64,000 nucleotides of DNA, taken from assembly GCA_036971615.1 (NCBI GenBank), contig JAYKKR010000038.1, positions 124,001-188,000 of the forward strand, read 5' to 3'. This DNA comes from Amyloporia xantha (lineage: Eukaryota; Basidiomycota; Agaricomycetes; Polyporales; Adustoporiaceae). Both the position numbers and the translations under genes were made by a program. The notes under the pieces were generated by a model. It saw only the letters and a program-made list of their open reading frames with translations. It was not told where the DNA came from and ran no database searches. Positions 24,501-57,642 of the stretch are shown here, piece after piece. Within the stretch, counting starts at the first letter, position 1; each line of letters starts with the position of its first letter.

Positions 24501-25405
24501 AATTTCTCTATTGGCTGGAGGTCATGAGTGTTATTGACAAGATAGCTCATGTATCTGTTGCATTACAGAGGATGTACAATGTGTGTCATAAACTTTTGGT
24601 CATATTTTGCATATGCTAATATTTAGTGAATAGAGCTCACCAGCATCATCATTAGTAAAACAATGCACAGAATTCATTACAGCAAATCAAGAGCCAATTT
24701 ATCTCAGTGCCCCTCATATTTATATCTCTGCCTTGCCATGGATGTCCTCAAACTTCTCAATTACACATAACTTTCATCCACAATTCCCCCATGTGTTCAA
24801 ATATGTGTGCTCAGGCCAAGTGAATAAAGCAATATTTCCAGTTTGGAGGGTGAATGCACACACAGATGGCGTGTATGACGTTTCATTTTCTCCTGATGGA
24901 AGGCATATTGTCACTGGTTCTGAAGACAGCACAATTTGCATATGGGATGCACAGACAGGCAAGCTGGTATCTCAGCCATTGGAAGGCCACAAAGATGCTG
25001 TCTGGTCTGTTGCATTCTCCCCAGATGGAAAGCACATTGTCTCTGGGTCTGGAGACAAGACAATTTGCATATGGGATGCACAGACAGGCAAGCTGGTATC
25101 TCAGCCATTGGAAGGCCACAAAGATGCTGTCTGGTCTGTTGCATTCTCCCCAGATGGAAAGCACATTGTCTCTGGGTCTGGAGACAACACAATTTGCATA
25201 TGGGATGCACAGACAGGCAAGCTGGTATCTCAGCCATTGGAAGGCCACAAACATGCTGTCGTGTCTGTTGCATTCTCACCAGATGGAAAGCACATTGTCT
25301 CTGGGTATCAAGACAACACAATTTGCATATGGGATGCACAGACAGGCAAGCTGGTATCTCAGCCATTGGAAGGCCACAAAGATGCTGTCGTGTCTGTTGC
25401 ATTCT
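21551..25405 (+). CDS. NACHT-WD40 STAND receptor (HNWD/HET-E-like), 5' part up to transposon insertion
   Basis: Fungal NLR-like receptor of the STAND class, the group used in heterokaryon incompatibility and proposed innate immunity. Start MSPPLKDKPRAGRSISRLGN. A Ser/Ala/Pro-rich low-complexity region (to about residue 270) contains three imperfect repeats around VSEARSAAL. A helical domain follows (LEVIEKFSDTLPPLKLAASA..), of the kind that precedes NACHT in many Agaricomycete NLRs. The NACHT has Walker A GIAGAGKTT and Walker B VVIVDALDECG, sensor-like FFISSRPESQI. An intron with donor GTGTGT at about 24582 joins the winged-helix region to the linker IYLSAPHIYISALP, then WD40 repeats 1-4 and part of 5. 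At 25405 the frame enters the LTR and stops after about 15 codons. Introns at about 22532-22586, 22714-22771, 22911-22961 and 23034-23084. Confidence 0.9.
24859..25405 (+). repeat. WD40 repeats 1-5a, 126-bp units
   Basis: Four full 42-codon units plus the start of a fifth. Units 2-5 are almost identical in DNA. Variable codons sit at the start (GHK[D/H]) and after SV, and at SG[S/Y]xD[K/N]T. The array continues after the transposon at 37105. Confidence 0.93.
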
Positions 25406-26462
25406 TGTTAAGAACTAGGGTAATACTAGTACCTAAGCTTGTGTATCAGTAGTAATAGATAGAGATGGAAATACTTATGGGTTTGAAGCGAAGACTCAAG
25501 TAGTCTTCAGAGGTTTAATACCGATATACCGAGTAAGTAACGTAAGACCAAAAGGTCTTAGAGCTTGAAGACAGTAAGTTTGATTGGTATCGATTAAGAC
25601 CGAAGGTCGTAGGCTTAAGACCGTCTTAAGGCGATACCGCTTGGAGCGCACACAGTGATAAGTTTGAGGTAAAGAGTAAAGACTTCTTATTACAAGATAA
25701 CTCAATTCCTTCGCAAGTATTGTTGCCAGACCAAGGACTTAGGTAGCGCAGGGCAATACCGAAGTCCACTACTTAGCGAAGCTATAAGTAGCTTGTCAAG
25801 TCTGGGATAGATCGTTTTACCAGCGCGTAGCTATGGTAAGATCTACAATAGTAATTGAAGGAGACTAGGTCTCGTTGTGCTAAGAGCTTTAAGGGTAAAG
25901 TGGATTGCTCGAAACCGAAGACTGTTGGTCTTCTTAAATACAAGTGAGATATGCTAGAAGGTTCCTTAACACGCCGTATCCTACAAGCTATTGTACACAG
26001 CCTTATACCTGTGCTCCTATTGTTCTTACTTCACCGCATGGGATCCTAAGTGAGACCGCACCATTACCTGCCGTCCTAGAGTGGCCTCCCTCGGTCATCC
26101 TTCGGTCTTGCTTCGGTCTCGAGCAAGCCTTATGCAAGACCGGCCCGTATCTCCTTACTCGGCTCGAAGTACCGGTCCTCGTGGGTTTCACGGGATTCGG
26201 TATCTTGCGTTCTCTGTAGGCGTTTGTGGGTCCCTGAGATCCGCTTTCGCTAGGGAAAGTAATTCGAGAGTTCCAGCGGGATAGGTTACTGAGTCACTTT
26301 CCTAAACGAGACGCGGTCTCACACGCGAAGCAAGAGGGTTGGCTGATACCGGCGTTCCGTTAGGTCTTGGACAGGTAGTGAAGGACTACCCGTTAGTTGG
26401 GGACCGAGCTGCACACCAGTGGTCTCGGTCTTAAAAGGAGACTAACCACGATATCCATAACA
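25406..26462 (-). repeat. 3' LTR of the retrotransposon (left copy)
   Basis: 1057 bp, starts TGTTAAGAAC and ends CCATAACA as read on the plus strand. It matches 36048-37104 with one difference noticed. It has about eight AGACCG/CGGTCT words and several small palindromes around GGTCT/AGACC. Confidence 0.96.
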
Positions 26463-26476
26463 TAGCCCCCCCAGTC
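26463..26476 (-). other. Polypurine tract next to the 3' LTR
   Basis: On the element strand the bases before the 3' LTR read ACTGGGGGGGCTA; the seven-G run (26466-26472) sits at the expected plus-strand primer position. Confidence 0.6.
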
Positions 26477-26509
26477 CTGCATTACCGTCTAAGACCGCTG
26501 CTTGCAATC

Positions 26510-27829
26510 ATGGCCCCGCTTTCTCTCGAAGATATGCCTGCGTCGATACTCGCAGAAACTTTCGAAATTCCTTCGGCTCCTCCCCTCTGGACTCCCGAGC
26601 TCCTACGCGAGTTCGAAATTCGTCTTTGGGAATCCATGAATTCCGAGCTCTACGACTGGGAGCTGATCGACGCGATTCATCGCGCCCACATGGTGAGTCT
26701 GCGGTTTTAGTTCATTACTCGCCTGGAATACCTGTTGAAACCGAGCTTTCTTAAAAAGAATGACGAAATTCTGGACTCTCTGGAGGAGCAACCAGACCTC
26801 GACCTCCCTCCTTTGATGCTGGCGCTGACCGTGTGGCGGGAAGACCGACATGATCTTCCTGCTACTTATCCCGCTTTTCTAGCGTCTCGCGATGTAATCG
26901 ATGATGCGCCCGAGTTCTGGTTAGGTAAGTTTCAATTCCTCGGTTTGATTGAGACCGAGCGGCTGACCTCAGGCTCCTAGTTGAAGGCGAAGACGATGAC
27001 ATTGACTTGGAGGCGATGGAGGAAGAAGTCGGACTGATTCGACGAGTAAGTTATTCCGCTTGTAAGACCGATAGATAGGGTTTACTAATATCCTTATCTT
27101 CTGATGCTTAGTTTCGAGGGCAAAACCGGTGTGCACGCTGCAAGGCAGCTGAGCAGGAAGTCTGCGAAACTCTGCGCCCTGGTGGCGCTTGCACTTTCTG
27201 CAGCGGCAAGAAACAGCGGTGCTCCATTAGTGGGGGGCGCGGTCGATACCGACGTTTGGCGAGTGAGACGGTAGGGGTACCTGTAGTCGACTCAGGAGCG
27301 CGGTCTTTCCGGTCTTCCACCAAGCGTTCAGGTGAGACCGCTCCTTCTCTGTTTCCTGCCTGGGTTCTAACCTTTCCGTCGGTTTGTAGCGGCCTCTTCG
27401 GATCGTTCTACGCGGTCTAAGCGGTCTCGACATACCACTCAGTCCTCTCAAAGGACGTCTACCCCTCCTGTCACTCCCTTGAATGAGGAGTCAATCGTAG
27501 CGGAGAATGAACCGAGACTGGCGGAGGCGTATACTCCTCCCGTCACTCCTTTGGATGAGGAATCGGTTGTAGTGGCAGACGAACCAAGACCGGCGGAGGC
27601 TGGTCCTGGGCCAGCCACCCTTGCCCAGCAGGAACGCGCGCGCTTTGAAGCGCAGATAGCGGAACTGCAACGTCAACTGCAGGAAGTGACTGGTAAGCAA
27701 CGGTCCAAGGGTGCTGCTAAGAGACGTCGTCAGCGGGAAAGAAGAAAAGCGCGAAAGGCTGCGGAGACCGAGAAGGGGAAGGGCGTTGACCGTGACGAAG
27801 ATGACGAGGACGAGACCGAGGAGGAGTAA
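26510..27829 (+). CDS. Accessory antisense gene: Zn2Cys6-like cluster protein with coiled coil, carried by the retrotransposon
   Basis: This gene lies inside the element but on the strand opposite to gag-pol. Start MAPLSLEDMPASILAETF. Introns at 26925-26980, 27046-27111 and 27332-27389 all use GT..AG, restore frame and are 56-66 nt. The third coding block carries six cysteines spaced CX2CX7CX8CX2CX6C (27129-27222), close to the fungal Zn(II)2Cys6 pattern CX2CX6C..CX2CX6C, with basic residues between. Downstream are a Ser/Thr/Pro linker with two near-repeats (TPPVTPL.EES), a short coiled coil (RARFEAQIAELQRQLQEV), a strongly basic stretch (AKRRRQRERRKARK) and an acidic tail. Between the first two blocks, 26693-26710 (GTGAGT..TTTTAG) holds an in-frame TAG: an 18-nt removal, a 66-nt intron ending at 26758, or a nonsense mutation. 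A DNA-binding role is inferred. Confidence 0.7.
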
Positions 27830-28003
27830 ACGGACTCGTGTACCAAGGACTTCATTATCGTAGTCGTGCCTTATTCGTAAATGGTCGGTTTTTTTTTAAA
27901 ATAAATACTTTTCTTGTAGAGATCAAGACCGAGTGACAGATAAATAAGAGAAATGATATTTGACTAGTGAAGCATGCAGTTCCCTTTCGGTTCTCACTTA
28001 TTT

Positions 28004-28801
28004 CTAAGCACAAGAAACCTGACCATTACAACCCTGGTAATCATGAGAAGGATGATTCCCACATCTATCCCCCACCAAAATGAAGTCCTCATCCGAGTCC
28101 GTACCTTCCTCGTCCATGGAAGAGTCATCGGTCTCGTCCATCACCCTGTCGAAGTATGGCGAGACCGGGTCATATTCTTCTGCACGTCGGATGGAGCGGG
28201 TGGGGTGGAGGATAAGCTCTCGACACTCGTTTGCAGACTCGCCCTCCGTGAAACCGGGCCATCCTATAGACTTGTAGTAGGATACCAGCTGACGATCCAC
28301 GGTCTCGATACCGGTAAGACCGTTAGGAAGAGCCAAGCAGGCATGCACGAATTCACCGACCCATGAGATAGCATCAATGCCATCACGCTGAGCGTCCGCA
28401 ACCGCGGTCATAGCCTCCTCTTCAGAGGGGAAGAGTCGATTTAACTCGTTGAATTCGCCATAGAAAGGGGCAGTGAGGAAGACGGGGGGAGACCGTATAC
28501 CGAGCTGGCGGCAGGCGAGCTTGATCTGAGGGGTTATAGTGAACTGCGTGTGGACGGTCTCGAGAGCGAGCCACAAGGCGGCGGCGAAACCGGTATGGAT
28601 GGTGGTTCGGTCTGGAAGACCGACTCTGGTGATACAGATGGGGAAAGGGGGAGTCCAAGTGAAGAAATTTCCTACGAACATAGTCGAGGGAAAGTAAGGG
28701 TCGGCAACTTGAGCCAAGGGAGTCGTAGGAATGAGAGCGAGTTCCCTGGTAGCTGAAGTAAGAGCGGTCATGGAGCGGTCTTCGTCAAATATAGCAGACA
28801 T
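28004..28801 (-). CDS. Accessory sense ORF of the retrotransposon, 265 aa, unknown
   Basis: Uninterrupted frame between the chromodomain frame and the antisense gene, on the element strand, starting MSAIFDEDRSMTALTSATRE. I recognise no family. The N-terminal two thirds look globular (YFPSTMFVGNFFTWTPPFPI, TIHTGFAAALWLALETVHTQ). The C-terminus is acidic (DETDDSSMDEEGTDSDED) and ends in a Cys/His-containing tail. No signal peptide or transmembrane helix is visible, so an envelope function is unlikely despite the env-like position. It converges tail to tail with the antisense gene, 174 bp apart. Confidence 0.65.
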   Translation of the reverse strand: MSAIFDEDRSMTALTSATRELALIPTTPLAQVADPYFPSTMFVGNFFTWTPPFPICITRVGLPDRTTIHTGFAAALWLALETVHTQFTITPQIKLACRQLGIRSPPVFLTAPFYGEFNELNRLFPSEEEAMTAVADAQRDGIDAISWVGEFVHACLALPNGLTGIETVDRQLVSYYKSIGWPGFTEGESANECRELILHPTRSIRRAEEYDPVSPYFDRVMDETDDSSMDEEGTDSDEDFILVGDRCGNHPSHDYQGCNGQVSCA

Positions 28802-29061
28802 GAGTCAAAAGTATAAGAGGTAGTTGAGCTTGGGAGTTCTGTTGGAAAGAAAACGGATTTGATGCAAGACTGTGATGAGAGGTGATCCCTTAAATATGAA
28901 TCCTTCTTAGAGTGGGCCCTACCCTTGAGAGACCGAGACAGCGGGAAATTAACTTATTGTTCAGAGTGGCATAGCAGAATCGTAGAGAAATAACTTACCG
29001 GGAAAAGGAGGAAGGTGGCTTCCTGCCTGGTTTAGTGTACCTGAGACCGGTTATGCTTGCT

Positions 29062-29475
29062 TTATGCGCCAGTAGCCAGACCCAGCTTACTAGTTACTGC
29101 GGCTCGATTCTTCTGGTCTTGCCAATCCTTGAGCACATCGGGCGCGTTGCGGAGCTGAGACCGAGTCAGCCATTCATCGTATTCAGGACCGTATCCCACA
29201 AATCGAGTCTTGAATAGAGGGATCCTACGGCCATTACGCCCTCGTCGAGACCGCTCCGCTATAATGGATTCTACCTCGAATTCTGGCAACTCATTAAAGT
29301 CTTGGCGAGAGAGATCCTTGATCGGTCTCTCTCCGAATTCCGCAGGGGACTCGTGATACCGTTCGAGATGCGCTATGTTGATCACAGGGTGTATTCCATA
29401 GGAGGCAGGTAGGCGAACCTGATAAGCCACTGCACTGATTTTACGGATGATCTCAAAAGGCCCGTCGTACTTCAT
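29062..29475 (-). CDS. Integrase C-terminus and chromodomain of the retrotransposon (separate frame)
   Basis: Reads KYDGPFEIIRKISAVAYQVR and INIAHLERYHES, the conserved end of chromovirus integrases, then a chromodomain (VESIIAERSRRG.., FKTRFVGYGPEYDEWLTRSQ). Chromodomains bind methylated histone H3 tails and direct integration to heterochromatin. It continues the pol reading one base out of phase: pol ends at its stop near 29475 while this frame is already open from about 29497. So the polyprotein is broken by a small indel or joined by frameshifting. Confidence 0.88.
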   Translation of the reverse strand: MKYDGPFEIIRKISAVAYQVRLPASYGIHPVINIAHLERYHESPAEFGERPIKDLSRQDFNELPEFEVESIIAERSRRGRNGRRIPLFKTRFVGYGPEYDEWLTRSQLRNAPDVLKDWQDQKNRAAVTSKLGLATGA

Positions 29476-32400
29476 TAGCAGCTTCCGCCCCGACCTGATT
29501 GAGACCGAAGTAGCTCTAAGGAGTCCACATTTAGCACTACTTTGTCCCCGACCTCGAATTCAGTCATGAGCCGCCCGTTATTGTAAGCCCTCTTTTGGTG
29601 TATCTGACCCAAGTACAGAGCTTCTTGAGCGTCGTGCCGATCAGCCATGAATCCATCTACCATATCTCCTGCCTCGGGGTGGCTTGTATCTGAGACCGAT
29701 CGCGGGATCGCGGGTCCGGGATTCATTACCGTGCCCCCCGTGACCGGGTGATATCCGCGGAGCAAGTAAGCGGGCGAATATCCAGTGGCAGAGTGCGGGC
29801 TTGTATTGTAGGATAATCGAAGACCGTCCAAGTGGTCAGACCAATCATCCCTAGACGGACCGATGTAGGCTCGCATTGCGATTTCCAAGGTCTGATTCAG
29901 GATCTCGGTCTGACCATCCGCTTGAGGGTGATATGACGTCGTCAGAGACCGATCGATCTTCATGAGTCTACAGACCTCCTTCCAGAAATCTCCCCTCCAG
30001 CGCACGTCTCGGTCTGAAATGATTTGTTTGGGCAGACCGTATTCACTGAAGACATGCTTGAATAGGAGCGCAGCAGTCTCCTTTTCCGTGATCTTCGTAG
30101 TGGTTGGAATAAATAGACCGTACTTAGTGAGCTTGTCCACTATTACCAAGATGTTATCGAAACCGCTGGAATTAGGAAGTTCAGGAATAAAATCCATAGT
30201 GATCACTTCGAAGGGTCGAGTCGGAATCGGTATAGGTTGAAGAAGACCGATTGGAGCATGTCGTCTTGGCTTAGATTTCTGACAAACGTCGCAAGTGGAA
30301 ACATATCTCTTAATATCCCTAGACATCCGTGGCCAGTAGTAAGTGGATGCTATTCGATTGTAAGACCGATGATAACCAGCGTGAGCTCCTTCCGTCATTA
30401 AATCATGAGCCTCCTTCATGACCGGCACCCGCATTGCATCCGGTACACACAGTCGACTGTTACCTTGATGATCCTCAAAATGAATCAGTCCTTCTGAGGT
30501 GGTAGTGTATTGAGGAAATTCGGGATTAGACCAGTTGGTTTCGGTCTCAAGACTCTTCTTGACCTTACTGAAATGCTCGTCCTTTCGATAGGCTTCCTTC
30601 CAAGCTTGGACCTCCTCAGGGGTAATGCCGATTAGAAGCGAGTGCGTTGACGAGGTTTGGTAGACCGAACTTTGATGGATCTCGGACTCCGTACAGTCGT
30701 GCGATGCGAACAAGACCGTTACCTCCTCGACTTGCTCATCGCGGTCTAAGATCTCACAAAACCGGGCCGCGACCTTGATCAACTTTTCCTCGAATCGCGG
30801 TCCCAATTCCTCGTACATATTCCTGAGGGGATCCTCTACTTCCTGGTGAAGTTGCAGTGCATCAGTAGGATCAGAGGAAGGGCCGTCTTGGTAAGGGATC
30901 CTTCGTCGAAGTCTCGAGATAGGATCGACGTTAGAATGGACTCGTCCTGCTCTGTGAATAATCTTGAGACCGGGGTATGCAGCGAACACTGTTCCCCAGG
31001 TCAGTAGTCTTCGATTTACGTTCTGAAAGGTCCGACTCCAGGTTAGGGCGGCATGGTCCGTAATGGCCAAGACCGAAGATCCTTCCAAGAACGATTGGAA
31101 CTTGATTAAGCCTTCCTTGAGAGCGAGAGCTTCTCGTTCAGTGGGAGAATAATTTCGTTCCGCTGCTTTCAGAATGCGAGACCAGTAGGCAATCACTCTT
31201 TCGACATAGACTGTAGTGTCTTCAAAGCGGTCAGCCCATTGACCAGGAGCGGGCACATCGCTTTCTGTTGGGGAGACTGCGACTACCAGGTTCGGTATTG
31301 GCTCCTTATTGTCGAAGGCTCTCTTTAACCGCTCGTAGACCTTAGTGCCTCGTAAATCCTTGATCAACATGGGCTGTACTTGTTGAAGAATAGCGGCGAG
31401 ACCGTAGTCACAAGCGTCGGTATACAATCGGTATGGTCTTCCAGGCATAGCATATGCTCGAACCGGAGCGTTAACCAGAACCTGTTTGCAAAGGTTGAAA
31501 GCCTCTTGATGCGCTTCGGTCCATTCCCAACCTAAACCTTCCTTCTTGAGGAGACCGAACAATGGGGCTGCAATCCAAGCATAGAAAGGAATATAGGAAG
31601 AAAAGTATACCATCATTCCCAAGAAGACTTGTAATTCCTTTACATTTCGCGGTTCCATGAGACCGACAATAGCATCCACCTTCTCTTTGTGGGTAGAGAT
31701 TCCGAGGCGGGACACCTTTTGTCCTAGAAGAAGTAATGATTGATAGGCTAAATGACATTTTCCTGGAGAGAGGGTTATACCGGCTTGTTCTATAGCAAGG
31801 AAGACCGAATTGAGGTGCTTAACGTGGTCCTCGAATGAAGTAGAATATACCACGATGTCGTCGATATATACCAGCGCAAATATCCATAGGAAAGGTGCCA
31901 AAATGTTCTGCATTACTCTTTGAAAAACACTAGGACCGTTTCTGAAACCGAAAGGCATACGTCGGAATTGGTGAAGACCGCGATGAGTGCGAAAAGCGGT
32001 TTTCTCCTTATCCTTATCTGCCATTTCTAATTGAGTGAAACCAGAGAGAGCGTCGAGGGTGGATAACCATTGCGCACCCGTAAGAGCCTGTAAGATATCC
32101 TCCTGCTTGGGCAGAGGGAACTCATCCGGTATTACTTGGTCATTGAGCTTTCGAAAATCAATAACCATCCTAGGTTTCCCGTTCCGGTATACTATGAATG
32201 CAGGCGCACCCCATGGACTTTTGGAGGGTTCGATCACTCCTAATTCCAGCCAAGCATCCATCTGTTTGTCCATAACTTCTCGTTTAGCCGGGGACGAAGG
32301 AAAGGGAGGGAGAGAGACCGGAGTAGAGTTCGGTTTTAACGGTACCTCGACCTTGGCGTTGTAATGCCCTAATCGTCCATTCAGGCTGAAGGCTAACTTA

Positions 32401-34868
32401 TGCTTTAAAACCACCTGTTCCAGAACCGATCGCTGAGAATCCGATACGTGACTACTGAAGTCGACCTCCTTGAGGAGTTGAGACTCGTCAATAATCTCCT
32501 CTGGGGGCTCCCCGGTCTTGGGTCCTCCCTCTAATGGTTCCGTAGAGGAAGGGTCTTCTACAGTATCCTTTCCTCGACTAGTGATCAGGTCTTGGACAGT
32601 GCTTGAGACCGTTTGACCTTGGGCCAAGTGGCTAAGCACATCTATGGATCCGTTACTTTCCATTAATAAACGTATAAACCTAGCGTGGGATGCCGCCTTG
32701 GCTAAGGCGGTCTTGCCCATTCCCTCAGGTCGGTCTAGCCATTTATCGGGATCGAAAGCCTTTCCAAGAAGTTGCCCAGCAGGAATGATCATAGGGTGCT
32801 TACTGAAGTTGGCGACGTGTAGAGCCGGTCTTTCCGAGGAGATGAATGAGTCCGTGGTAGCGAATACATCCTCCATATTCTTATGCGTTTGAAAAGACCG
32901 TTCTACAAATAATGACTTCAAGTTGTCTTTGAATGGCGCGTAGACTGGTACTAGCTTAGAGGATTCTGGCGGAATGATAACCATCTGCTTAGCTCGGACT
33001 AGATTATCTTGAGACCGAGAGCGCTGTTGTCGCTTTCGCCGTTGATTCCTCTTATGTAGTCTTGTCCTCCCCGTGCGGTCTCGCGATCCTATGAATACCT
33101 TGAAGGCTTGGCCATGATCATCGGTAAGTGAAGAAGTCGAATTCTCTACTTCCAAGGAAATTCCTGTGTCCGCAAACTGAATCGCGGTCTTACCGTCCTG
33201 CCTTAAGACCGATAGAGAATACTGATCCGCGAAGTCGTTGCCTAAAATGAAAGGAGTAGTCATTCCTTTGACCACATAAGCTTCGATATTCATTTTAATG
33301 GATCGGTCTTCGGTCTTGAAGATCAAGTCAATAGGAACGTAGCCAGAAATCTTAGCGCGGCCAGTGACCTGCACTAAGTTGATCTTCTGTCCCGCTTTGA
33401 TCTTAGGAGGGTGGACCATCTCTTCGAGACATCTGGCAGAGATAAGAGTGATATCTGAACCCGAGTCGATGATTATATCCTGCATTTCTACCTCTCGATC
33501 CCCTAGGAATCCGCGGGCCTTGGTAGCTTTAGATCCCAGAAAAGAGCATCCGGGTGGTCGAGCGAGGTGTTTGCGAAGCTCTAAGACCGGTTGATTGTCT
33601 AGAGAGACCGGTCCTTGGAAGAGAGATCGAAGATTTTTAGTAGCGAGCCTGCGACTCCGTCGAAGGGGAGGAGGAGCGGGGCGGGCACTATAAACCGTGA
33701 CTGATTTGGACTCCGGAGTAGCCGAGGGGACTGTCTCTCCCTCCAGGGCCTTACCTACTGCTTCGGTCTTGCTAGGCTGAGCAAGATATACAGAGGGTTC
33801 GGTAGACTGGAGGGATTCATGAAAATCCTGCTCGGTCTCAGACTCTACATCCGACAATCCTAAGTAAGCAATCTCATATTCTTCTTCCGCACGTAGTTCC
33901 TCTTCGGAAAGCTGAATGTAATTGGTGCGAGCAAACCGCCGGCCTTGTCGAGCGTGTTTACACTCATTGTCCCAATGGAAAGGACTATCACAGTGACGAC
34001 AAGGTCGCTTGCCTAGTTCCTGCGGAGTCTTACGAAGTTTAGACCGGTTGGAATCGTCTCGAGGGAACTTGGGTGGAGACCGGTTAGGAGAGGAGGAATC
34101 AGCGGCATTGGAACGTGAATCCCTGAATCGGTTTCGTCGGTCTTCAAAGGAAGGTTTTAATGGTTCCTTAGAATCAGTTCCAAGACCAACAAGGGTTTCC
34201 TCGTAATACTTGATAGCGTTCTGAAGATCGACTACCTTAGCATACAGATGGGGAGAAAGAACCGTGTTCCACATGACCGGGGCTCCATCCAGGATTTCAC
34301 CAACCAGCTCGGTTTCGGTGTAATCGTATACGAACTCCAATAACTCCAGCTTTCGTATATAATATTCAGAAGGTAATTCCCTGTGGTTACCGCTGTCGCG
34401 ATACCGAGCGCGATTGGCTTTAGACTTTTGTCGGTCTAACCAGGCTTTGTTCATGTAGTGTTTCCCAATAGCCTTTCGCAGGGAAGTCCATCCTTTCTGA
34501 ATACGTTCTCGTTCATAACCCGGGAGTGAAAAGTACCAATTCTCAGCGTGAGACCGAAGTCGACGGGGAACGACTGACCCTAACTGTTTGGCTATCATAG
34601 AAGATCCTTCCGCTATTTGATTGACCTTCATAATCCATCGAGCTAGAGTCTCAGTGTCTCCGTCCCATGTTGGTACGACATCGATTTTAAGTTTAAGGTC
34701 AAACCTAGGTACCTCAGCGGGTTTCGCGTCCTCGCTGTCTGAATCCGGGTTCTTCGGTTTTCGCTTTGGAGGAATAGGACCTGCCGGTTTCTTCGGAGGT
34801 CCAGTCGGTTTTCCATCGTCTGAAGAATCTGAAGGATCGCTAGGATCATCACCAGGGAACCTTCTCAT
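29475..34868 (-). CDS. Gag-pol polyprotein of the Ty3/gypsy retrotransposon
   Basis: 1797 residues from the first ATG. Capsid-like retrotrans_gag domain at about 60-230 (PTWDGDTETLARWIMKVNQI). Zinc knuckle CX2CX4HX4C at 290-303. Aspartic protease at about 455-560 with active-site DSG at 468. Reverse transcriptase at about 840-1050 with FRRMPFGFRNGPSVFQ and catalytic YIDD at 1001. RNase H from about 1145 (LYTDACDYG). Integrase with HHCC zinc finger at about 1488-1529 and catalytic D1559, D1619, E1655 (TMDF, SDRD, GQTE). All catalytic residues are present, so these enzymes look intact. The frame upstream is the same as that of the gag-like ORF, separated from it by one TGA. Confidence 0.96.
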   Translation of the reverse strand: MRRFPGDDPSDPSDSSDDGKPTGPPKKPAGPIPPKRKPKNPDSDSEDAKPAEVPRFDLKLKIDVVPTWDGDTETLARWIMKVNQIAEGSSMIAKQLGSVVPRRLRSHAENWYFSLPGYERERIQKGWTSLRKAIGKHYMNKAWLDRQKSKANRARYRDSGNHRELPSEYYIRKLELLEFVYDYTETELVGEILDGAPVMWNTVLSPHLYAKVVDLQNAIKYYEETLVGLGTDSKEPLKPSFEDRRNRFRDSRSNAADSSSPNRSPPKFPRDDSNRSKLRKTPQELGKRPCRHCDSPFHWDNECKHARQGRRFARTNYIQLSEEELRAEEEYEIAYLGLSDVESETEQDFHESLQSTEPSVYLAQPSKTEAVGKALEGETVPSATPESKSVTVYSARPAPPPLRRSRRLATKNLRSLFQGPVSLDNQPVLELRKHLARPPGCSFLGSKATKARGFLGDREVEMQDIIIDSGSDITLISARCLEEMVHPPKIKAGQKINLVQVTGRAKISGYVPIDLIFKTEDRSIKMNIEAYVVKGMTTPFILGNDFADQYSLSVLRQDGKTAIQFADTGISLEVENSTSSLTDDHGQAFKVFIGSRDRTGRTRLHKRNQRRKRQQRSRSQDNLVRAKQMVIIPPESSKLVPVYAPFKDNLKSLFVERSFQTHKNMEDVFATTDSFISSERPALHVANFSKHPMIIPAGQLLGKAFDPDKWLDRPEGMGKTALAKAASHARFIRLLMESNGSIDVLSHLAQGQTVSSTVQDLITSRGKDTVEDPSSTEPLEGGPKTGEPPEEIIDESQLLKEVDFSSHVSDSQRSVLEQVVLKHKLAFSLNGRLGHYNAKVEVPLKPNSTPVSLPPFPSSPAKREVMDKQMDAWLELGVIEPSKSPWGAPAFIVYRNGKPRMVIDFRKLNDQVIPDEFPLPKQEDILQALTGAQWLSTLDALSGFTQLEMADKDKEKTAFRTHRGLHQFRRMPFGFRNGPSVFQRVMQNILAPFLWIFALVYIDDIVVYSTSFEDHVKHLNSVFLAIEQAGITLSPGKCHLAYQSLLLLGQKVSRLGISTHKEKVDAIVGLMEPRNVKELQVFLGMMVYFSSYIPFYAWIAAPLFGLLKKEGLGWEWTEAHQEAFNLCKQVLVNAPVRAYAMPGRPYRLYTDACDYGLAAILQQVQPMLIKDLRGTKVYERLKRAFDNKEPIPNLVVAVSPTESDVPAPGQWADRFEDTTVYVERVIAYWSRILKAAERNYSPTEREALALKEGLIKFQSFLEGSSVLAITDHAALTWSRTFQNVNRRLLTWGTVFAAYPGLKIIHRAGRVHSNVDPISRLRRRIPYQDGPSSDPTDALQLHQEVEDPLRNMYEELGPRFEEKLIKVAARFCEILDRDEQVEEVTVLFASHDCTESEIHQSSVYQTSSTHSLLIGITPEEVQAWKEAYRKDEHFSKVKKSLETETNWSNPEFPQYTTTSEGLIHFEDHQGNSRLCVPDAMRVPVMKEAHDLMTEGAHAGYHRSYNRIASTYYWPRMSRDIKRYVSTCDVCQKSKPRRHAPIGLLQPIPIPTRPFEVITMDFIPELPNSSGFDNILVIVDKLTKYGLFIPTTTKITEKETAALLFKHVFSEYGLPKQIISDRDVRWRGDFWKEVCRLMKIDRSLTTSYHPQADGQTEILNQTLEIAMRAYIGPSRDDWSDHLDGLRLSYNTSPHSATGYSPAYLLRGYHPVTGGTVMNPGPAIPRSVSDTSHPEAGDMVDGFMADRHDAQEALYLGQIHQKRAYNNGRLMTEFEVGDKVVLNVDSLELLRSQSGRGGSC

Positions 34869-34952
34869 ACGTGGAATCCCCCTTACCGAACAACTCTGTA
34901 ATTCGGCGACCGTGACGAGCGGGTTCAGCTCTCTTCTTCTTAGCCTTCTCCC

Positions 34953-35972
34953 TCATTCCGGGAATCCTGGTAGTCGGGTCTTGATCCTCGTCTTGCGGCG
35001 GGTCTTCAGCCTCGTTTCGTGAGGAACTTGATCAGTTTCGGTGGGAGCAGTCGCAGTCGGTCTTGTATTTCCTGCCATATGCGGCGGTCTTGGTCGGTTG
35101 GTGATAGGAGTTCTTCGAAGGGTAGATGAGACCGCAGGAGCCGTTACTGGAGTCGTCGGTCTAGCGTTTGGGACGGACGCGTTACTGTGCCGACTAGGTA
35201 CTCGAGGGGGCGCCTCGTCTTCATCCTCATCAGGAATGATTTTCTGACGAATCCCTAAAACCCTAGCTAAGAATAATAGGAAGGTCTCGACCTCTGCTCG
35301 GTATGCGACTCCCAAGATCTGGAAATCATTAACCGAATAAACAATTTCCTTAGATAGACCAACCTTGTCAAATTTAGGAAAGGGAGGAGGAGGAACACCG
35401 CAGGCTTGAATACGGTTTCCGTAAGTATAAGTGAGCTTTCCAAGCAAACCGTTAAGTTTGTTATACAAGATAAGGTCTGGGCATACTCCGACAATACCGC
35501 CCTCTGCAGAGTAAAGGACGGGATTCTGTAAGATTTGATCGAGCAGATCGATTTCTCGACGCCAATACCGACTTTCAGTCCTGGATAGATGCGTTCCGTC
35601 GTAGCCCTCGGGGAGAGTATAGGGAGCGCGCTTCAGATACTCTTGTGCCAGTAGGGTTGCGTCGTATCTGCGACCGAAGATGGTTCCTAGTGGACCGTCA
35701 ACGTTAGCAAGGTCGCGAAGTGCATTAGTGATTGGAAATTCCAGAGTGACCGAGCTGACATTGGAGAAGTAGACCGAGTCCACTGGTTTTCCTCCCTGCA
35801 CTGGAGCGAGCTCGGTATCGAATAGCGATTGATCGATGAAATCTTCCTCATCTTCTGAGTTAGTTCTCCTAGGGGGAGAAGCTGGAAGAGGGTGATCTGC
35901 CGGTTCATCGCGGTCTTGAGGGCCGGGATTACTAGAGGCGGCGTCCTCGTGCTCTAGAGTGACAAAAGACAT
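34953..35972 (-). CDS. Gag-like ORF1 of the retrotransposon, 339 aa
   Basis: Starts MSFVTLEHEDAASSNPGPQD about 75 bp after the 5' LTR. It has a disordered acidic N-terminus, a globular middle (NALRDLANVDGPLGTIFGRR, YTYGNRIQACGVPPPPFPKF), and a Pro/Arg/Thr-rich basic end. No zinc knuckle is present; that lies in the next ORF. It ends with a single TGA (34953-34955). The same frame then stays open for 28 codons into the pol ATG, which suggests stop-codon read-through as in some retroelements, or an independent pol start. Confidence 0.75.
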   Translation of the reverse strand: MSFVTLEHEDAASSNPGPQDRDEPADHPLPASPPRRTNSEDEEDFIDQSLFDTELAPVQGGKPVDSVYFSNVSSVTLEFPITNALRDLANVDGPLGTIFGRRYDATLLAQEYLKRAPYTLPEGYDGTHLSRTESRYWRREIDLLDQILQNPVLYSAEGGIVGVCPDLILYNKLNGLLGKLTYTYGNRIQACGVPPPPFPKFDKVGLSKEIVYSVNDFQILGVAYRAEVETFLLFLARVLGIRQKIIPDEDEDEAPPRVPSRHSNASVPNARPTTPVTAPAVSSTLRRTPITNRPRPPHMAGNTRPTATAPTETDQVPHETRLKTRRKTRIKTRLPGFPE

Positions 35973-36034
35973 CTGTTAGTGAAGCTTAAAGCGAACGAAA
36001 TGTGAGTAACTTTATTCAAAGGAAAAGTTCCTCT

Positions 36035-36047
36035 GAATGTCCACCAA
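36035..36047 (-). other. Primer-binding site candidate next to the 5' LTR
   Basis: On the element strand one base after the LTR end reads TGGTGGACATTC. TGG matches the CCA end of a tRNA primer. I cannot assign the tRNA. Confidence 0.5.
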
Positions 36048-37104
36048 TGTTAAGAACTAGGGTAATACTAGTACCTAAGCTTGTGTATCAGTAGTAATAG
36101 ATAGAGATGGAAATACTTATGGGTTTGAAGCGAAGACTCAAGTAGTCTTCAGAGGTTTAATACCGATATACCGAGTAAGTAACGTAAGACCAAAAGGTCT
36201 TAGAGCTTGAAGACAGTAAGTTTGATTGGTATCGATTAAGACCGAAGGTCGTAGGCTTAAGACCGTCTTAAGGCGATACCGCTTGGAGCGCACACAGTGA
36301 TAAGTTTGAGGTAAAGAGTAAAGACTTCTTATTACAAGATAACTCAATTCCTTCGCAAGTATTGTTGCCAGACCAAGGACTTAGGTAGCGCAGGGCAATA
36401 CCGAAGTCCACTACTTAGCGAAGCTATAAGTAGCTTGTCAAGTCTGGGATAGATCGTTTTACCAGCGCGTAGCTATGGTAAGATCTACAATAGTAATTGA
36501 AGGAGACTAGGTCTCGTTGTGCTAAGAGCTTTAAGGGTAAAGTGGATTGCTCGAAACCGAAGACCGTTGGTCTTCTTAAATACAAGTGAGATATGCTAGA
36601 AGGTTCCTTAACACGCCGTATCCTACAAGCTATTGTACACAGCCTTATACCTGTGCTCCTATTGTTCTTACTTCACCGCATGGGATCCTAAGTGAGACCG
36701 CACCATTACCTGCCGTCCTAGAGTGGCCTCCCTCGGTCATCCTTCGGTCTTGCTTCGGTCTCGAGCAAGCCTTATGCAAGACCGGCCCGTATCTCCTTAC
36801 TCGGCTCGAAGTACCGGTCCTCGTGGGTTTCACGGGATTCGGTATCTTGCGTTCTCTGTAGGCGTTTGTGGGTCCCTGAGATCCGCTTTCGCTAGGGAAA
36901 GTAATTCGAGAGTTCCAGCGGGATAGGTTACTGAGTCACTTTCCTAAACGAGACGCGGTCTCACACGCGAAGCAAGAGGGTTGGCTGATACCGGCGTTCC
37001 GTTAGGTCTTGGACAGGTAGTGAAGGACTACCCGTTAGTTGGGGACCGAGCTGCACACCAGTGGTCTCGGTCTTAAAAGGAGACTAACCACGATATCCAT
37101 AACA
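36048..37104 (-). repeat. 5' LTR of the retrotransposon (right copy)
   Basis: Same length and sequence as the left copy apart from one base noticed. It carries the promoter for gag-pol transcription toward lower coordinates. Confidence 0.96.
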
Positions 37105-38320
37105 ATTCTCTCCTGATGGAAAGCATATTGTCTCTGGTTCTTGGGACAAGACAATTTGCATATGGGATGCACAGACAGGCAAGCTGGTATCTCAGCCATT
37201 GGAAGGCCACAAACATGCTGTCTGTTCTGTTGCATTCTCTCCTGATGGAAAGCATATTGTCTCTGGTTCTTGGGACAAGACAATTTGCATATGGGATGCA
37301 CAGACAGGCAAGCTGGTATCTCAGCCATTGGAAGGCCACAAAGATGCTGTCCGGTCTGTTGCATTCTCTCCTGATGGAAAGCATATTGTCTCTGGTTCTC
37401 GGGACAAGACAATTTGTATATGGGATGCACAGACAGGCAAGCTGGTATCTCAGCCATTGGAAGGCCACAAAGATGCTGTCTGGTCTGTTGCATTCTCTCC
37501 TGATGGAAAGCATATTGTCTCTGGTTCTTGGGACAAGACAATTTGCATATGGGATGCACAGACAGGCAAGCTGGTATCTCAGCCATTGGAAGGCCACAAA
37601 GATGGTGTCTGGTCTGTTGCATTCTCTCCTGATGGAAAGCATATTGTCTCTGGTTCTTGGGACAAGACAATTTGCATATGGGATGCACAGACAGGCAAGC
37701 TGGTATCTCAGCCATTGGAAGGCCACAAAGATGCTGTCTGGTCTGTTGCATTCTCTCCTGATGGAAAGCATATTGTCTCTGGTTCTCAAGACAAGACAAT
37801 TTGCATATGGGATGCACAGACAGGCAAGCTGGTATCTCAGCCATTGGAAGGCCACAAACATGCTGTCTGGTCTGTTGCATTCTCACCAGATGGAAAGCAC
37901 ATTGTCTCTGGGTCTGGAGACAACACAATTTGCATATGGGATGCACAGACAGGCAAGCTGGTATCTCAGCCATTGGAAGGCCACAAAGATGCTGTCTTGT
38001 CTGTTGCATTCTCTCCTGATGGAAAGCATATTGTCTCTGGTTCTCAAGACAAGACAATTTGCATATGGGATGCACAGACAGGCAAGCTGGTATCTCAGCC
38101 ATTGGAAGGCCACAAAAATGGTGTCTGGTCTGTTGCATTCTCACCAGATGGAAAGCACATTGTCTCTGGGTCTCAAGACAACACAATTTGCATATGGGAT
38201 GCGCAGACAGGCAAGCTGGTATCTCAGCCATTGGAAGGCCACAAATGGGCTGTCCTCTCTGTTGCATTCTCTCCTGATGGAAAGCACATTGTCTCTGGGT
38301 ATGCAGATGCTACAGTGATA
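37105..38320 (+). repeat. WD40 repeats 5b-14, 126-bp units
   Basis: About nine and a half units. Two DNA subtypes alternate: one with CTCTCCTGATGG..CATATTG..GGTTCT, the other with CTCACCAGATGG..CACATTG..GGGTCT, the latter in units 11 and 13. Protein variation concentrates at a few sites (D/H/N/W, A/G, W/V/C/R/L, S/Y, G/W/Q/R, K/N). Confidence 0.95.
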
Positions 38321-38641
38321 GACTGGCCCAATCCAATATCTGCTATGCCATCTAATTCCCCATCAAATTGTTGTGGAATTCATGGTCTTCTTTGGGATGC
38401 TTTTGCTCCATCTGGTGGCACACGGTCTGGTATATGCCTGAATTCTGATGGTTGGATTATAGGGCCAAACAATGAGCTTATACTTTGGATTCCTCTTCAC
38501 TTCCGTGCAGGGCTGTTGTGGCCAGGTTGCCAAAGAATATTTGGAGTTCCATTCACAGTCACACTGGATCTCAGCCAATTTGTTCATGGAGAGCACTGGA
38601 ACAAGTGTTATTCCCCTTCTGCAGCTTTAGACATCAATTGA
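37105..38641 (+). CDS. NACHT-WD40 receptor, 3' part after the transposon insertion
   Basis: Continues WD40 repeat 5 in the frame left at 25405 once the element and one ATTCT copy are discounted. Repeats 5 to 14 follow, then a divergent tail (CCGIHGLLWDAFAPSGGTRS, NNELILWIPLHFRAGLLWPG) typical of Agaricomycete NACHT-WD40 proteins, ending SAALDIN with TGA at 38639-38641. The total of 14 repeats equals two seven-bladed propellers. The interruption shows a clean, recent split with no other damage seen on either side. Without the element the gene would be intact; as it stands this half lacks its promoter and start. Confidence 0.9.
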
Positions 38642-55728: not shown

Positions 55729-57612
55729 TAGTGTCTCCTAAGTTCGGTCCAGAACCTAGGTCCGAACCCCAAACCCTCAAACCGGACCCAAGGTTCAGGT
55801 TCCATCCAGGTTCTGTCCAGGTGTCGGCCGTTAGGTTCAGTCCACAGTTCTGGGCACTGCCCGAGCACAGTCTGAACGTGTTTGAACCATGAACCTAGTT
55901 AGGAAATCTGATCAATCTGATCGAGGTCATCCTTCGCCCCCCACCATCTCTGGAGTCATCAACGGCTCCCCTCTTTCCTCCCCCTTGTGATCACCCTCCA
56001 ACACTGTCACATCGACCTTGCACTTGACCTTGCACTCGACCCCACACCTCTCACCTAAGTGTGGGAACTCACCACCACCCCCCTCTGCACCATTAATGCC
56101 ACCAGATCACATGCCGTTTGTACACGCATCATGCACCACAATGACTCAAGCTCGGGCAACCTGAAGCCTGAAGCTGCAGGAACACAATATGACGGCCACT
56201 GCACGCAGATCATGGCTAACAATAGCAAAAGGTGAGTACCCGAAGCTGCTTCCACTGCCAACCACACCCTACAAGGTGCCATCTGCCTTTGCACACATCT
56301 TGCAGATGGTCGGGCGCCACTGGCACGATGCCAGCGACAGCAGTTTGTTCAGCATGTGGGCCCACTGGCGATGACATTAGCAATGTTCACTGATCAACCA
56401 ATTCTCGTTTATGCACGCACTCGAATGCACCTAGTATCGTGCAGCTGATCATCAACGTCTCAGGCGGGGCTGCAGGGAATCCGGTATCGGTCAGCTGGAC
56501 AGTGCTTCTCACAAACTAGATGAGTGGACCAGGCAGTGGTGAGCTACTTTTCTTTTCTTTTTTCCGTGACACACTCCTTGGTGACAGTCGTGTGCATGCA
56601 CTTGCCGCCGTCGCCGGCATTTGCATTTGTGAGCAGGGACGGTTTCGAGGGAGTCAGCAGATTAAAGTTACCTGCTGGATAGGCACATCACTGTTAGGAG
56701 CACAGTTGGGACGAAGGTAGCCTACGGTGCGACAGAGAGCGAGAGCAATGATATTCAGATAGTGCTGTAGAACAGTAGTTATACAAGAGCGAAAGACTAA
56801 GGGATAGAGCGAGTAAGTAGGGGTTTATATAGCTAGTCATAGTTGAGCATGAGTAAGGCAAAGTAGGAGTCAGGTGATAGCTGAGTAAGGGATGCATCAT
56901 GTGTCAGCAAAATAGAAGGAAGATGAGATCTGAGAGAGCACAAAGATGAGAAGCAAGAGGGCACAAGATAGCGCGGACACCGACACCGGCACCTAAGGCT
57001 CACGAGAAGTTGCAGAAGCAAGTGATGTATACAAAGGAGGCCATCGCAGATCACGCTGGCCGTGTATGTACATGTTTGTACTATGGCACTTAGCGCGCAA
57101 GCATCTACTGTAACATCATGGTTGCGCATGACGATGAGGCAGTGTGGAATGGAGGAGTCATAGCGGTTGCACACTAAGTATAGTACAGTGAGTCATGGTT
57201 AGGCATGACAACGAAGCAAGTGAACAGTAAGACGAAATAATCAAGGAAATTGTAACAATCACAGAGAGTGATCACTGGTATTATGGTGGGTGTCGGGCAT
57301 GTAGTACTGTATTATATGTTCTTGCAGCCTCATACTCACCCTTCCAGCATCCCCCCATACATAAGGTATCACCACTTTATGTATGTGTACAGTAGAGTAA
57401 AATAAAATGAATTAAATTTTATTAATTTAAAAAATTCAAGGTTCAGAAGGTTCAAACCTGTTCTGAACCTGAACTGAACCTGCTGAACTGGTTCAGCAGG
57501 TTCAGTTCAGGTTCAGGTTCAGGTTCAGGTTCAGCCATATCTATGTAGGCTTGGTTCGGGGTTCAGCCAAAATACCTGCCAAACCAAACTGAACCAAACT
57601 TAGGAGACACTA
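55729..57612. mobile_element. Non-autonomous hAT-like element
   Basis: Bounded by about 20-bp terminal inverted repeats TAGTGTCTCCTAAGTTYGGT; TAGTG fits the hAT terminal consensus YARNG. The subterminal regions are dense in GAACC/GGTTC (six or more tandem GGTTCA units near 57497-57534). An 8-bp TATCTGAA precedes the left end. AATCTGAA is found 6 bp beyond the right end, an imperfect target-site duplication. No transposase motif was seen in the 1.88 kb. It lies between the DUF6533 gene and the ORC1 stop. Confidence 0.65.
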
Positions 57613-57642
57613 CATAATAATCTGAAGGCAGATGCAGACCCT

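Follow-up and report, generated by a model that had tools for sequence, protein, structure and literature searches.

A Long Terminal Repeat Retrotransposon of Amyloporia xantha Saturated with a Short Word That May Be Read by Its Own Antisense Zinc-Cluster Protein

Introduction

Why would a retrotransposon carry one six-base word along its entire length, in coding and non-coding DNA alike and in both orientations? This question is raised by a 64-kb stretch of the genome of the fungus Amyloporia xantha (assembly GCA_036971615.1, contig JAYKKR010000038.1, positions 124,001–188,000), hereafter the window, to which the coordinates below refer. Positions 25406–37104 hold a recent Ty3/Gypsy chromodomain long terminal repeat (LTR) retrotransposon of 11.7 kb on the minus strand, a member of what is denoted here as subfamily A, and the word is AGACCG or its complement, CGGTCT. 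A first-pass annotation of this DNA had suggested that the word is a site for a zinc-cluster protein that the element encodes on its antisense strand. The reading favored here, to which we give about an even chance on the sequence evidence, is that the element's own zinc-cluster protein binds this private word along the full length of the element as a mark of self, most likely against silencing.

VANDALs are Mutator-like DNA transposons. In Arabidopsis, the portions consulted of two accounts describe a short motif that is multiplied within a VANDAL family and bound by the family's own VANC protein, with silencing lost over the element (PMC5735166, PMC10398659). The motifs are described there as lying mainly in non-coding tandem arrays, in a single orientation (PMC5735166).

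Abundance and Distribution of the Word

The features in which the word was counted are as follows:

25406..37104, both orientations: field of 93 AGACCG/CGGTCT words, mean spacing 125 bp (counted)
25406..26462, minus strand: 3' LTR in the gag-pol sense, 8 words
26510..27829, plus strand: antisense zinc-cluster gene, five inferred exons, 357 amino acids, 11 words (3 intronic), from splice-site reading and comparison of subfamilies A and B
29475..34952, minus strand: gag-pol open reading frame (ORF) of 1825 codons with reverse transcriptase, RNase H and integrase, 43 words (ORF list and Pfam)
36048..37104, minus strand: 5' LTR in the gag-pol sense, 9 words

The 93 words of the 11.7-kb element, 55 AGACCG and 38 CGGTCT as read on the plus strand, compare with 22 in the remaining 52.3 kb of the window, in agreement with the first-pass statement that the word is only sporadic outside the element. 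Genome-wide, 21,760 words in 46.81 Mb amount to 0.465 per kb, so that the element, at 7.95 per kb, is enriched 17-fold. The earlier sub-counts were close to ours: 43 words between 29460 and 34600 were recounted as 43, about 14 in 28.0–29.3 kb as 13, 8–9 per LTR as 8 and 9, and about 12 in the antisense gene as 11. The flanking DNA is at background, with no word for 3.2 kb leftward and single words at 37352 and 38423 rightward.

Word density is alike across LTRs, introns, exons on either strand, and spacers. Eight of ten element segments hold 5.9–11.2 words per kb, the exceptions being short (174 bp with one word and a 72-bp leader with none), and 76 of the 93 words fall outside the LTRs. This distribution bears on the possibility that the element uses its zinc-cluster protein to repress itself or to limit its copy number, the words recruiting the protein at high dose. 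Such a reading shares the sequence evidence of the one that we favor, and transposon-encoded repressors are known in general; however, it needs sites at the promoter, where only a minority of the words lie, and it is not easy to see why a selfish element should be selected to carry repressor sites throughout its coding DNA. We regard it as improbable. Orientation bears on another alternative, a word acting at the RNA level (splicing, packaging, or an RNA-binding protein) or protecting against a small-RNA pathway. The words occur throughout the transcript, which is compatible with such a role without directly supporting it, but the orientations are mixed, even in the gene transcribed the other way and in three of the four introns of that gene. 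This mixture points to double-stranded DNA and leaves an RNA-level role very improbable.

Short words may drift up in biased DNA, and VANC motifs are described, in the part of the account consulted, as multiplying by tandem duplication (PMC5735166). An artefact of composition, of codon bias or of the spread of a longer duplicated unit was therefore weighed. The 43 words in gag-pol compare with a mean of 6.8 (sd 2.4, maximum 17) in 2000 codon-preserving shuffles, and AGACCG is the most extreme 6-mer both in such shuffles of gag-pol and against Markov models; for the whole element, an order-2 Markov model predicts 13 words. CGGTCT in gag-pol is spread over the three reading frames (8, 10, and 9). 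These results, together with the two orientations, uphold the earlier claim that neither codon bias nor a single frame explains the word. The 24 bases flanking the words agree at 6.3 positions on average, with at least 16 agreeing in only 10 of 4278 pairs (both LTRs counted). Because the flanks are unrelated, the word did not spread inside a duplicated unit.

An extended motif, YRA(G>A,T)ACCGA with the core CCG/CGG, was evident in the element. At position 1 of the word A is best, followed by G and T; at position 2 G is best, followed by A and T, with C excluded; and positions 3–5 (A, C, C) are near-invariant. A purine before the word and an A after it are preferred, found at 80 and 46 of the 93 words, respectively. 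Enrichment among single mismatches is about 7-fold for AAACCG and ATACCG, about 3-fold for GGACCG and AGACCT, and about 2-fold for TGACCG and AGACCA, and is absent for CGACCG and ACACCG. Such a graded profile looks like the imprint of a DNA-binding protein. CGG is the triplet generally contacted by Zn(II)2Cys6 proteins, and the profile bears out the earlier remark that the word contains it.

The words of the element showed no strong bias toward a particular spacing or pairing, nor an evident 11-base periodicity. A genome scan for three direct words with gaps of at most 30 bases returned 9 cases, compared with 21 for a reversed control, and none of the 9 lay in the listed A/B LTR copies; facing words at most 14 bases apart numbered 68, compared with 109 in the control, among the matches listed. 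Close clustering of words is thus not a genome-wide feature, the scans being silent on loosely word-dense places elsewhere. The 13-base palindrome AGACCG(A/T)CGGTCT, known from subfamily B LTRs, also occurs outside the listed LTR copies (C1:313291, C7:561301, C8:725321, C9:616685, and C12:366272, among the matches listed), where it may represent old remnants or host sites.

Conservation and Turnover of the Word

Subfamily A comprises 15 LTR matches, or about 10 insertions, and subfamily B, with B-like copies, a further 27 LTR matches at 68–84%. As judged from the three longest matches (two with a single stop codon), pol proteins of A and B are 93% identical, while identity is about 80% for DNA, 71% for the LTRs, and 58% for the first 211 residues of the zinc-cluster protein. 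Word density is equal in the two subfamilies, and AGACCG tops the 6-mer ranking in all eight A/B pol loci tested (18 fetched).

Across 5.8 kb of pol and its flanks, A and the B copy L040 hold 51 and 50 words, of which 37 are shared and 14 and 13 are private; over a 5.8-kb pol stretch, A and the B copy L042 hold 51 and 48, with 34 shared. The retained fractions in the L040 comparison are 0.725 and 0.740 for words, and 0.242 for 6-mers not overlapping words. Where words of A fall in codons for the same amino acid in B, synonymous third-base changes number 8 of 71, whereas the changes at other codons for those amino acids predict 32.6 (p = 2e-9), and the same test gave 7 of 39 (18.2 expected) for the B copy L041 and 6 of 43 (19.3 expected) for L042. 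Fully synonymous differences explain 8 of 11 A-private and 6 of 9 B-private words. The LTRs hold 8 words in A and 12 in B, and 5 of these are shared, 3 A-private, and 7 B-private at 71% identity. Among 31 frequent 6-mers, many of which overlap AGACCG and whose median conservation is 0.5, AGACCG ranks fifth, and the four ranked higher have three to five letters in common with it.

The number of words has thus been kept while their places shifted, and in this respect the words behave like binding sites that were selected for density. The excess conservation between A and B, taken with the codon shuffles, the Markov models, the unrelated flanks, and the three frames, rules out an artefact as far as sequence can tell, and we consider its probability close to negligible.

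A Relative That Lacks the Excess

A third family of the same genome, family C, has a pol about 62% identical to that of A where the two align. Its copies contain 0–5 AGACCG words where 2–4 are expected; the word is the top 6-mer in none of the 10 loci tested (12 fetched), nor does any other word reach the A/B level in those 10 loci. In matched stretches the density is 4–12 per kb in A and B and 0–2.1 per kb in C. The first-pass annotation had named equal enrichment of the word in the host genome, or in relatives lacking the antisense gene, as grounds against its proposal; checks on the genome and on family C showed no such enrichment. Enrichment restricted to the element's own family was judged here on A, B, C, and the genome mean, with other element families entering through that mean and not singly.

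In the alignable pol of five C loci, 0–1 of 14–15 words of A are present. Amino acid identity between A and these loci is 0.56–0.61 at word codons and 0.60–0.63 elsewhere. Since these ranges are close, no cost of the words to the protein is apparent; from these alignments, the words appear to have arisen on the A/B branch. With zinc-cluster queries, no match was found within 30 kb of the C copies on contigs C1, C2, C3, C10, C15, and C24, although a diverged gene could escape such queries. For the copies on contigs C7, C12, and C34, the nearest zinc-cluster matches lie 13, 6, and 12 kb away, and all belong to a large group of weak matches; these are probably separate repeats.

The Antisense Gene and Its Predicted Zinc-Cluster Protein

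The gene sits between pol and the 3' LTR, its coding sequence starting 48 bp inward of that LTR, which probably doubles as its promoter. The five-exon model was built from sequence by splice-site reading and comparison of the subfamilies, and splicing and expression are predicted on that basis:

26510–26692, 26759–26924, 26981–27045, 27112–27331, and 27390–27829, plus strand: predicted exons of the zinc-cluster gene
27130..27222, plus strand: cysteine cluster CARCKAAEQEVCETLRPGGACTFCSGKKQRC (pattern read from sequence)

The predicted protein consists of an N-terminal domain, the cysteine pattern CX2CX7CX8CX2CX6C, and then, as judged by eye, a coiled-coil-like stretch, a basic stretch, and an acidic tail. 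All six cysteines are invariant in the seven A and B copies aligned, and the stretches RPGGAC and GRGRYRR are kept alongside them. The first-pass annotation had described an antisense Zn2Cys6-like gene; the gene model and the zinc-cluster-like pattern of cysteines stood, while affiliation with the Pfam zinc-cluster family did not. It is the cysteine pattern alone that suggests a zinc cluster, and the whole protein matches no Pfam family. A search of a protein collection with the whole protein and with its first 205 residues found no homologue, which is no evidence of rarity because the fungal coverage of that collection is not established. Relatives were likewise absent from viral contigs searched with pol, and from genome and viral contigs searched with an alignment of the DNA-binding part.

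A Second Zinc-Cluster Repeat with a Different Word

Zinc-cluster queries of the genome matched 122 places in all, among them several further zinc-cluster groups, one of which matches at about 33% identity (e.g., C33:187903 and C23:272606). A score of 28.6 bits to one zinc-cluster exon, that of the L069 family described below, is shared by 39 places (e.g., C40:239467, C34:229659, and C5:151413) with open frames of about 110–250 amino acids, a putative high-copy zinc-cluster repeat family.

The L069 family was reached through weak matches to these queries (L069/L070, contig C31:163000–177499). It is represented by 23 matching stretches with identities of 94–100%; 12 of these exceed 8 kb, and several copies lie near contig ends. 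One exon of its zinc-cluster gene shows C-X7-C-X9-C-X2-C-X6-C, and in about ten places a second zinc-cluster gene lies about 15.6 kb away in the opposite orientation. AGACCG occurs in L069 at 1.07 per kb, about twice the genome mean, whereas GTCGCG/CGCGAC occurs at 5.6 per kb, compared with 0.65 per kb genome-wide. Among other 6-mers with two CpGs, CGACGA, ACGACG, and CGTCGA are at background, CGACCG and CGGCGC are two- to threefold up, and those containing CGCG are highest; because several are at background, CpG richness alone is insufficient as an explanation. CGCG exceeds all 1000 codon shuffles in each of three ORFs other than the zinc-cluster gene (23 vs. 12.3, 24 vs. 14.6, and 33 vs. 12.5), and none of the tested ORFs contains a known domain. 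In the gag-pol of the window, CGCG is at expectation (17 vs. 13.9 ± 3.2). The zinc-cluster protein of L069 differs from that of A and B, and its word differs too, as would be predicted from co-variation between word and protein, which the first-pass annotation had proposed as a check.

These comparisons bear on the alternative that a host DNA-binding protein, an activator or boundary factor, reads AGACCG and that the element exploits it, the zinc-cluster gene being unrelated. Words with a CGG core are typical of host Zn2Cys6 factors, and the word is present in the host at background level. However, a host factor should have its sites in the LTR alone, yet coding DNA is equally dense; no excess is seen in family C, which shares the genome; and another word marks the second zinc-cluster family. 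We therefore think a host reader quite unlikely.

Structure and Insertion Site of the Element

The remaining features of the element are as follows:

25401..25405: target-site duplication ATTCT, left copy (read directly)
26463..26477, minus strand: polypurine tract GGACTGGGGGGGCTA adjoining the 3' LTR (named by eye)
28004..28804, minus strand: 266-amino-acid sense ORF downstream of pol, 9 words (ORF list; no Pfam match)
29062..29559, minus strand: integrase C-terminus, SH3 (PF24626) and chromodomain (PF00385), in a frame that differs from the main ORF through an intron or lesion (Pfam)
34953..35975, minus strand: 340-amino-acid ORF preceding gag-pol, 6 words (ORF list; no Pfam match above cut-off)
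36031..36047, minus strand: primer-binding-site-like TTGGTGGACATTCAGAG adjoining the 5' LTR (named by eye)
37105..37109: target-site duplication ATTCT, right copy (read directly)

The LTRs are 1057 bp each, differ by a single mismatch, and have TGTTA...TAACA ends, and their boundaries are exact as read from the sequence. Subfamily B carries the identical 15 bases of the polypurine tract. Within the gag-pol ORF (34952–29478), Pfam places reverse transcriptase at 924–1079, RNase H at 1144–1326, and integrase at 1503–1676; the integrase core and protease are below cut-off, and the zinc-binding part of integrase is above it. The change of frame into the integrase C-terminus and chromodomain falls at 29475–29559, and the chromodomain barely passes (25.2 bits vs. 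a cut-off of 25.1). LTRs with short inverted ends, a 5-bp duplication, the order reverse transcriptase–RNase H–integrase, and a chromodomain after integrase are features of Ty3/Gypsy chromoviruses, and the assignment is made from domain order and LTR structure.

The element interrupts a NACHT/WD40-repeat gene (named by eye from its translation). In the split parts (24756–25442 and 36976–38436), WD40 units of 129 bp form an array in which many units are more than 90% identical, and a NACHT-like part, also recognized by eye, precedes this array. Local peaks of other 6-mers (GGCCGA, GGTTCA, CTGAAC, CAGTCA, and others) were each seen in one to three loci and are putative minisatellites; the GGTTCA/CTGAAC peak at 56250–58500 of the window is probably a short tandem repeat.

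A and B-like LTRs were found adjacent to one another at distances of 339 bp (C34:2371984–2374376), 1.1 kb (C59:509452–512595), and 3.5 kb (C14:102738–107087), a possible hint of self-targeted insertion that is confounded by islands of elements. This observation relates to an alternative in which the same protein, through the same words, governs where the element integrates, drawing it to old copies rich in words or keeping it off its own DNA (target immunity), or else escorts the element's complementary DNA into the nucleus. Coverage of the whole element with words suits a tag for handling DNA, a chromodomain already follows the integrase, and the two closest pairs (at 2.37 Mb of C34 and 0.51 Mb of C59) were found among 15 A and 27 B-like LTR matches. 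Transposable-element islands nevertheless account for that adjacency, the copy in the window inserted into DNA with background-level words only, and binding is as much a supposition here as in the reading that we favor. We consider a role in integration or transport unlikely, if worth bearing in mind.

Comparison with Known Systems

The closest parallel is in VANDALs. The accounts, in the portions consulted, resemble the present case in a short motif multiplied in its own family and rare elsewhere, in a protein encoded by the element, and in family members with different motifs, known there and suggested here by A/B and L069. The systems differ in that the element here is an LTR retrotransposon and not a DNA transposon, and in that its words lie in coding and non-coding DNA in both orientations and do not appear to have spread by duplication. 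For VANC, binding and loss of methylation were demonstrated, whereas function here is proposed from sequence, and the likeness drawn is one of system.

Retand elements, which are plant LTR retrotransposons, are described as having an antisense ORF, TRP28, between pol and the 3' LTR that encodes a putative DNA-binding protein (PMC11963269). The gene at 26510–27829 (plus strand) occupies the same place, so this arrangement is not unique to our element. Retand is described, however, as a non-chromovirus, and TRP28 (PF04195) was not among the Pfam matches here up to E = 10. Neither saturation with a word at the codon level nor a self-directed word of Retand is described in the consulted parts of these accounts (PMC11963269, PMC5735166). 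A search of the open-licence literature yielded no word-saturated LTR retrotransposon and no fungal one with an antisense zinc-cluster gene.

More distant likenesses were also considered. Gal4-type fungal Zn(II)2Cys6 proteins share the order of cysteines (CX2C...C...CX2C...C), the basic residues and coiled-coil-like stretch that follow, and a CGG word; in the present protein the spacing is CX2CX7CX8CX2CX6C, and the gene lies within a retrotransposon. HBZ of HTLV-1 is, likewise, the product of an antisense retroelement gene that starts beside the 3' LTR and is a DNA-binding regulator; it is a basic leucine zipper protein, no homology is claimed, and we know of no saturation with a word in that system. 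DNA uptake sequences of Neisseria and Pasteurellaceae are short self words that saturate a genome on both strands and within coding DNA, but serve bacterial DNA uptake through unrelated machinery.

Proposed Function of the Word

We suggest that the antisense gene supplies a zinc-cluster DNA-binding protein that would recognize YRAGACCGA (core CCG/CGG). Point substitutions, in coding regions mostly at synonymous sites, would have written the word over all 11.7 kb at about one per 125 bp. The protein would then coat every copy of its own family, marking it as self, and the coating would keep the chromatin of the element open against host silencing, as VANC does for VANDAL.

A, B, and L069 each combine a zinc-cluster gene with an enriched word; most C copies, as far as could be seen, have neither; and between A/B and L069 both gene and word differ. 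This is most simply explained if each protein binds the word that its family displays. Binding of AGACCG by the antisense protein is, in our view, likely. The words run from end to end of the element in either orientation, at intervals averaging about 125 bp, an arrangement that suggests coating of chromatin rather than control of a promoter. Given binding, use against silencing seems rather likely by analogy with VANC.

Several observations weigh on the other side. Binding, expression, and an effect on chromatin are inferred from sequence alone, and words in coding DNA are unlike VANC motifs. The first long spacing of the cysteine cluster is 7, where the classical Zn2Cys6 value is 6; Pfam Zn_clus (PF00172) matched neither the exon alone nor the whole protein; a sequence search of solved structures (PDB) returned weak matches only (best E = 0.17); and the AlphaFold2 model, with a mean predicted local distance difference test (pLDDT) score of 45.9, is too poor to use. 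Co-variation of word and protein is based on two independent cases, which are few. In the second of these, CGCGAC numbers 46 where an order-2 Markov model predicts 15.7, an excess of about 3-fold that is weaker than for the word of A; of the codon shuffles, 1000 per ORF, 22, 17, and 0 attained the GTCGCG count of the three ORFs outside the zinc-cluster gene; in the zinc-cluster ORF itself, CGCG was reached by 71 and GTCGCG by 317 of 1000, neither being significant; and the ORFs of L069 overlap at their ends, their coding status being unproven.

Implications

New here is an unrelated repeat family with its own predicted zinc-cluster gene that is rich in a different word, GTCGCG/CGCG. With confidence slightly short of even, we propose that certain fungal mobile elements form a class in which every family has spread a private address word through its entire sequence, coding triplets not excepted, for its zinc-cluster protein to read. 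Equally tentatively, the class would include LTR retrotransposons, and two unrelated families in one genome would represent two zinc-cluster genes with two words (AGACCG and GTCGCG). It might then constitute, a suggestion we hold at just under an even chance, a self/non-self code of transposons that evolves by synonymous substitution.

If this proves true, retrotransposons would be capable of evolving sequence-specific recognition of themselves by rewriting their codons, beyond their promoters, and self-directed recognition would extend outside the Mutator-like elements of plants. A code between protein and word would be readable from the genome alone, each zinc-cluster family printing the site of its own protein, and many natural pairs of protein and site would become available for studying how zinc-cluster proteins choose their DNA. 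If, in addition, the words act against silencing, how selfish elements stay on without activating the rest of the genome would become a testable question in fungi.

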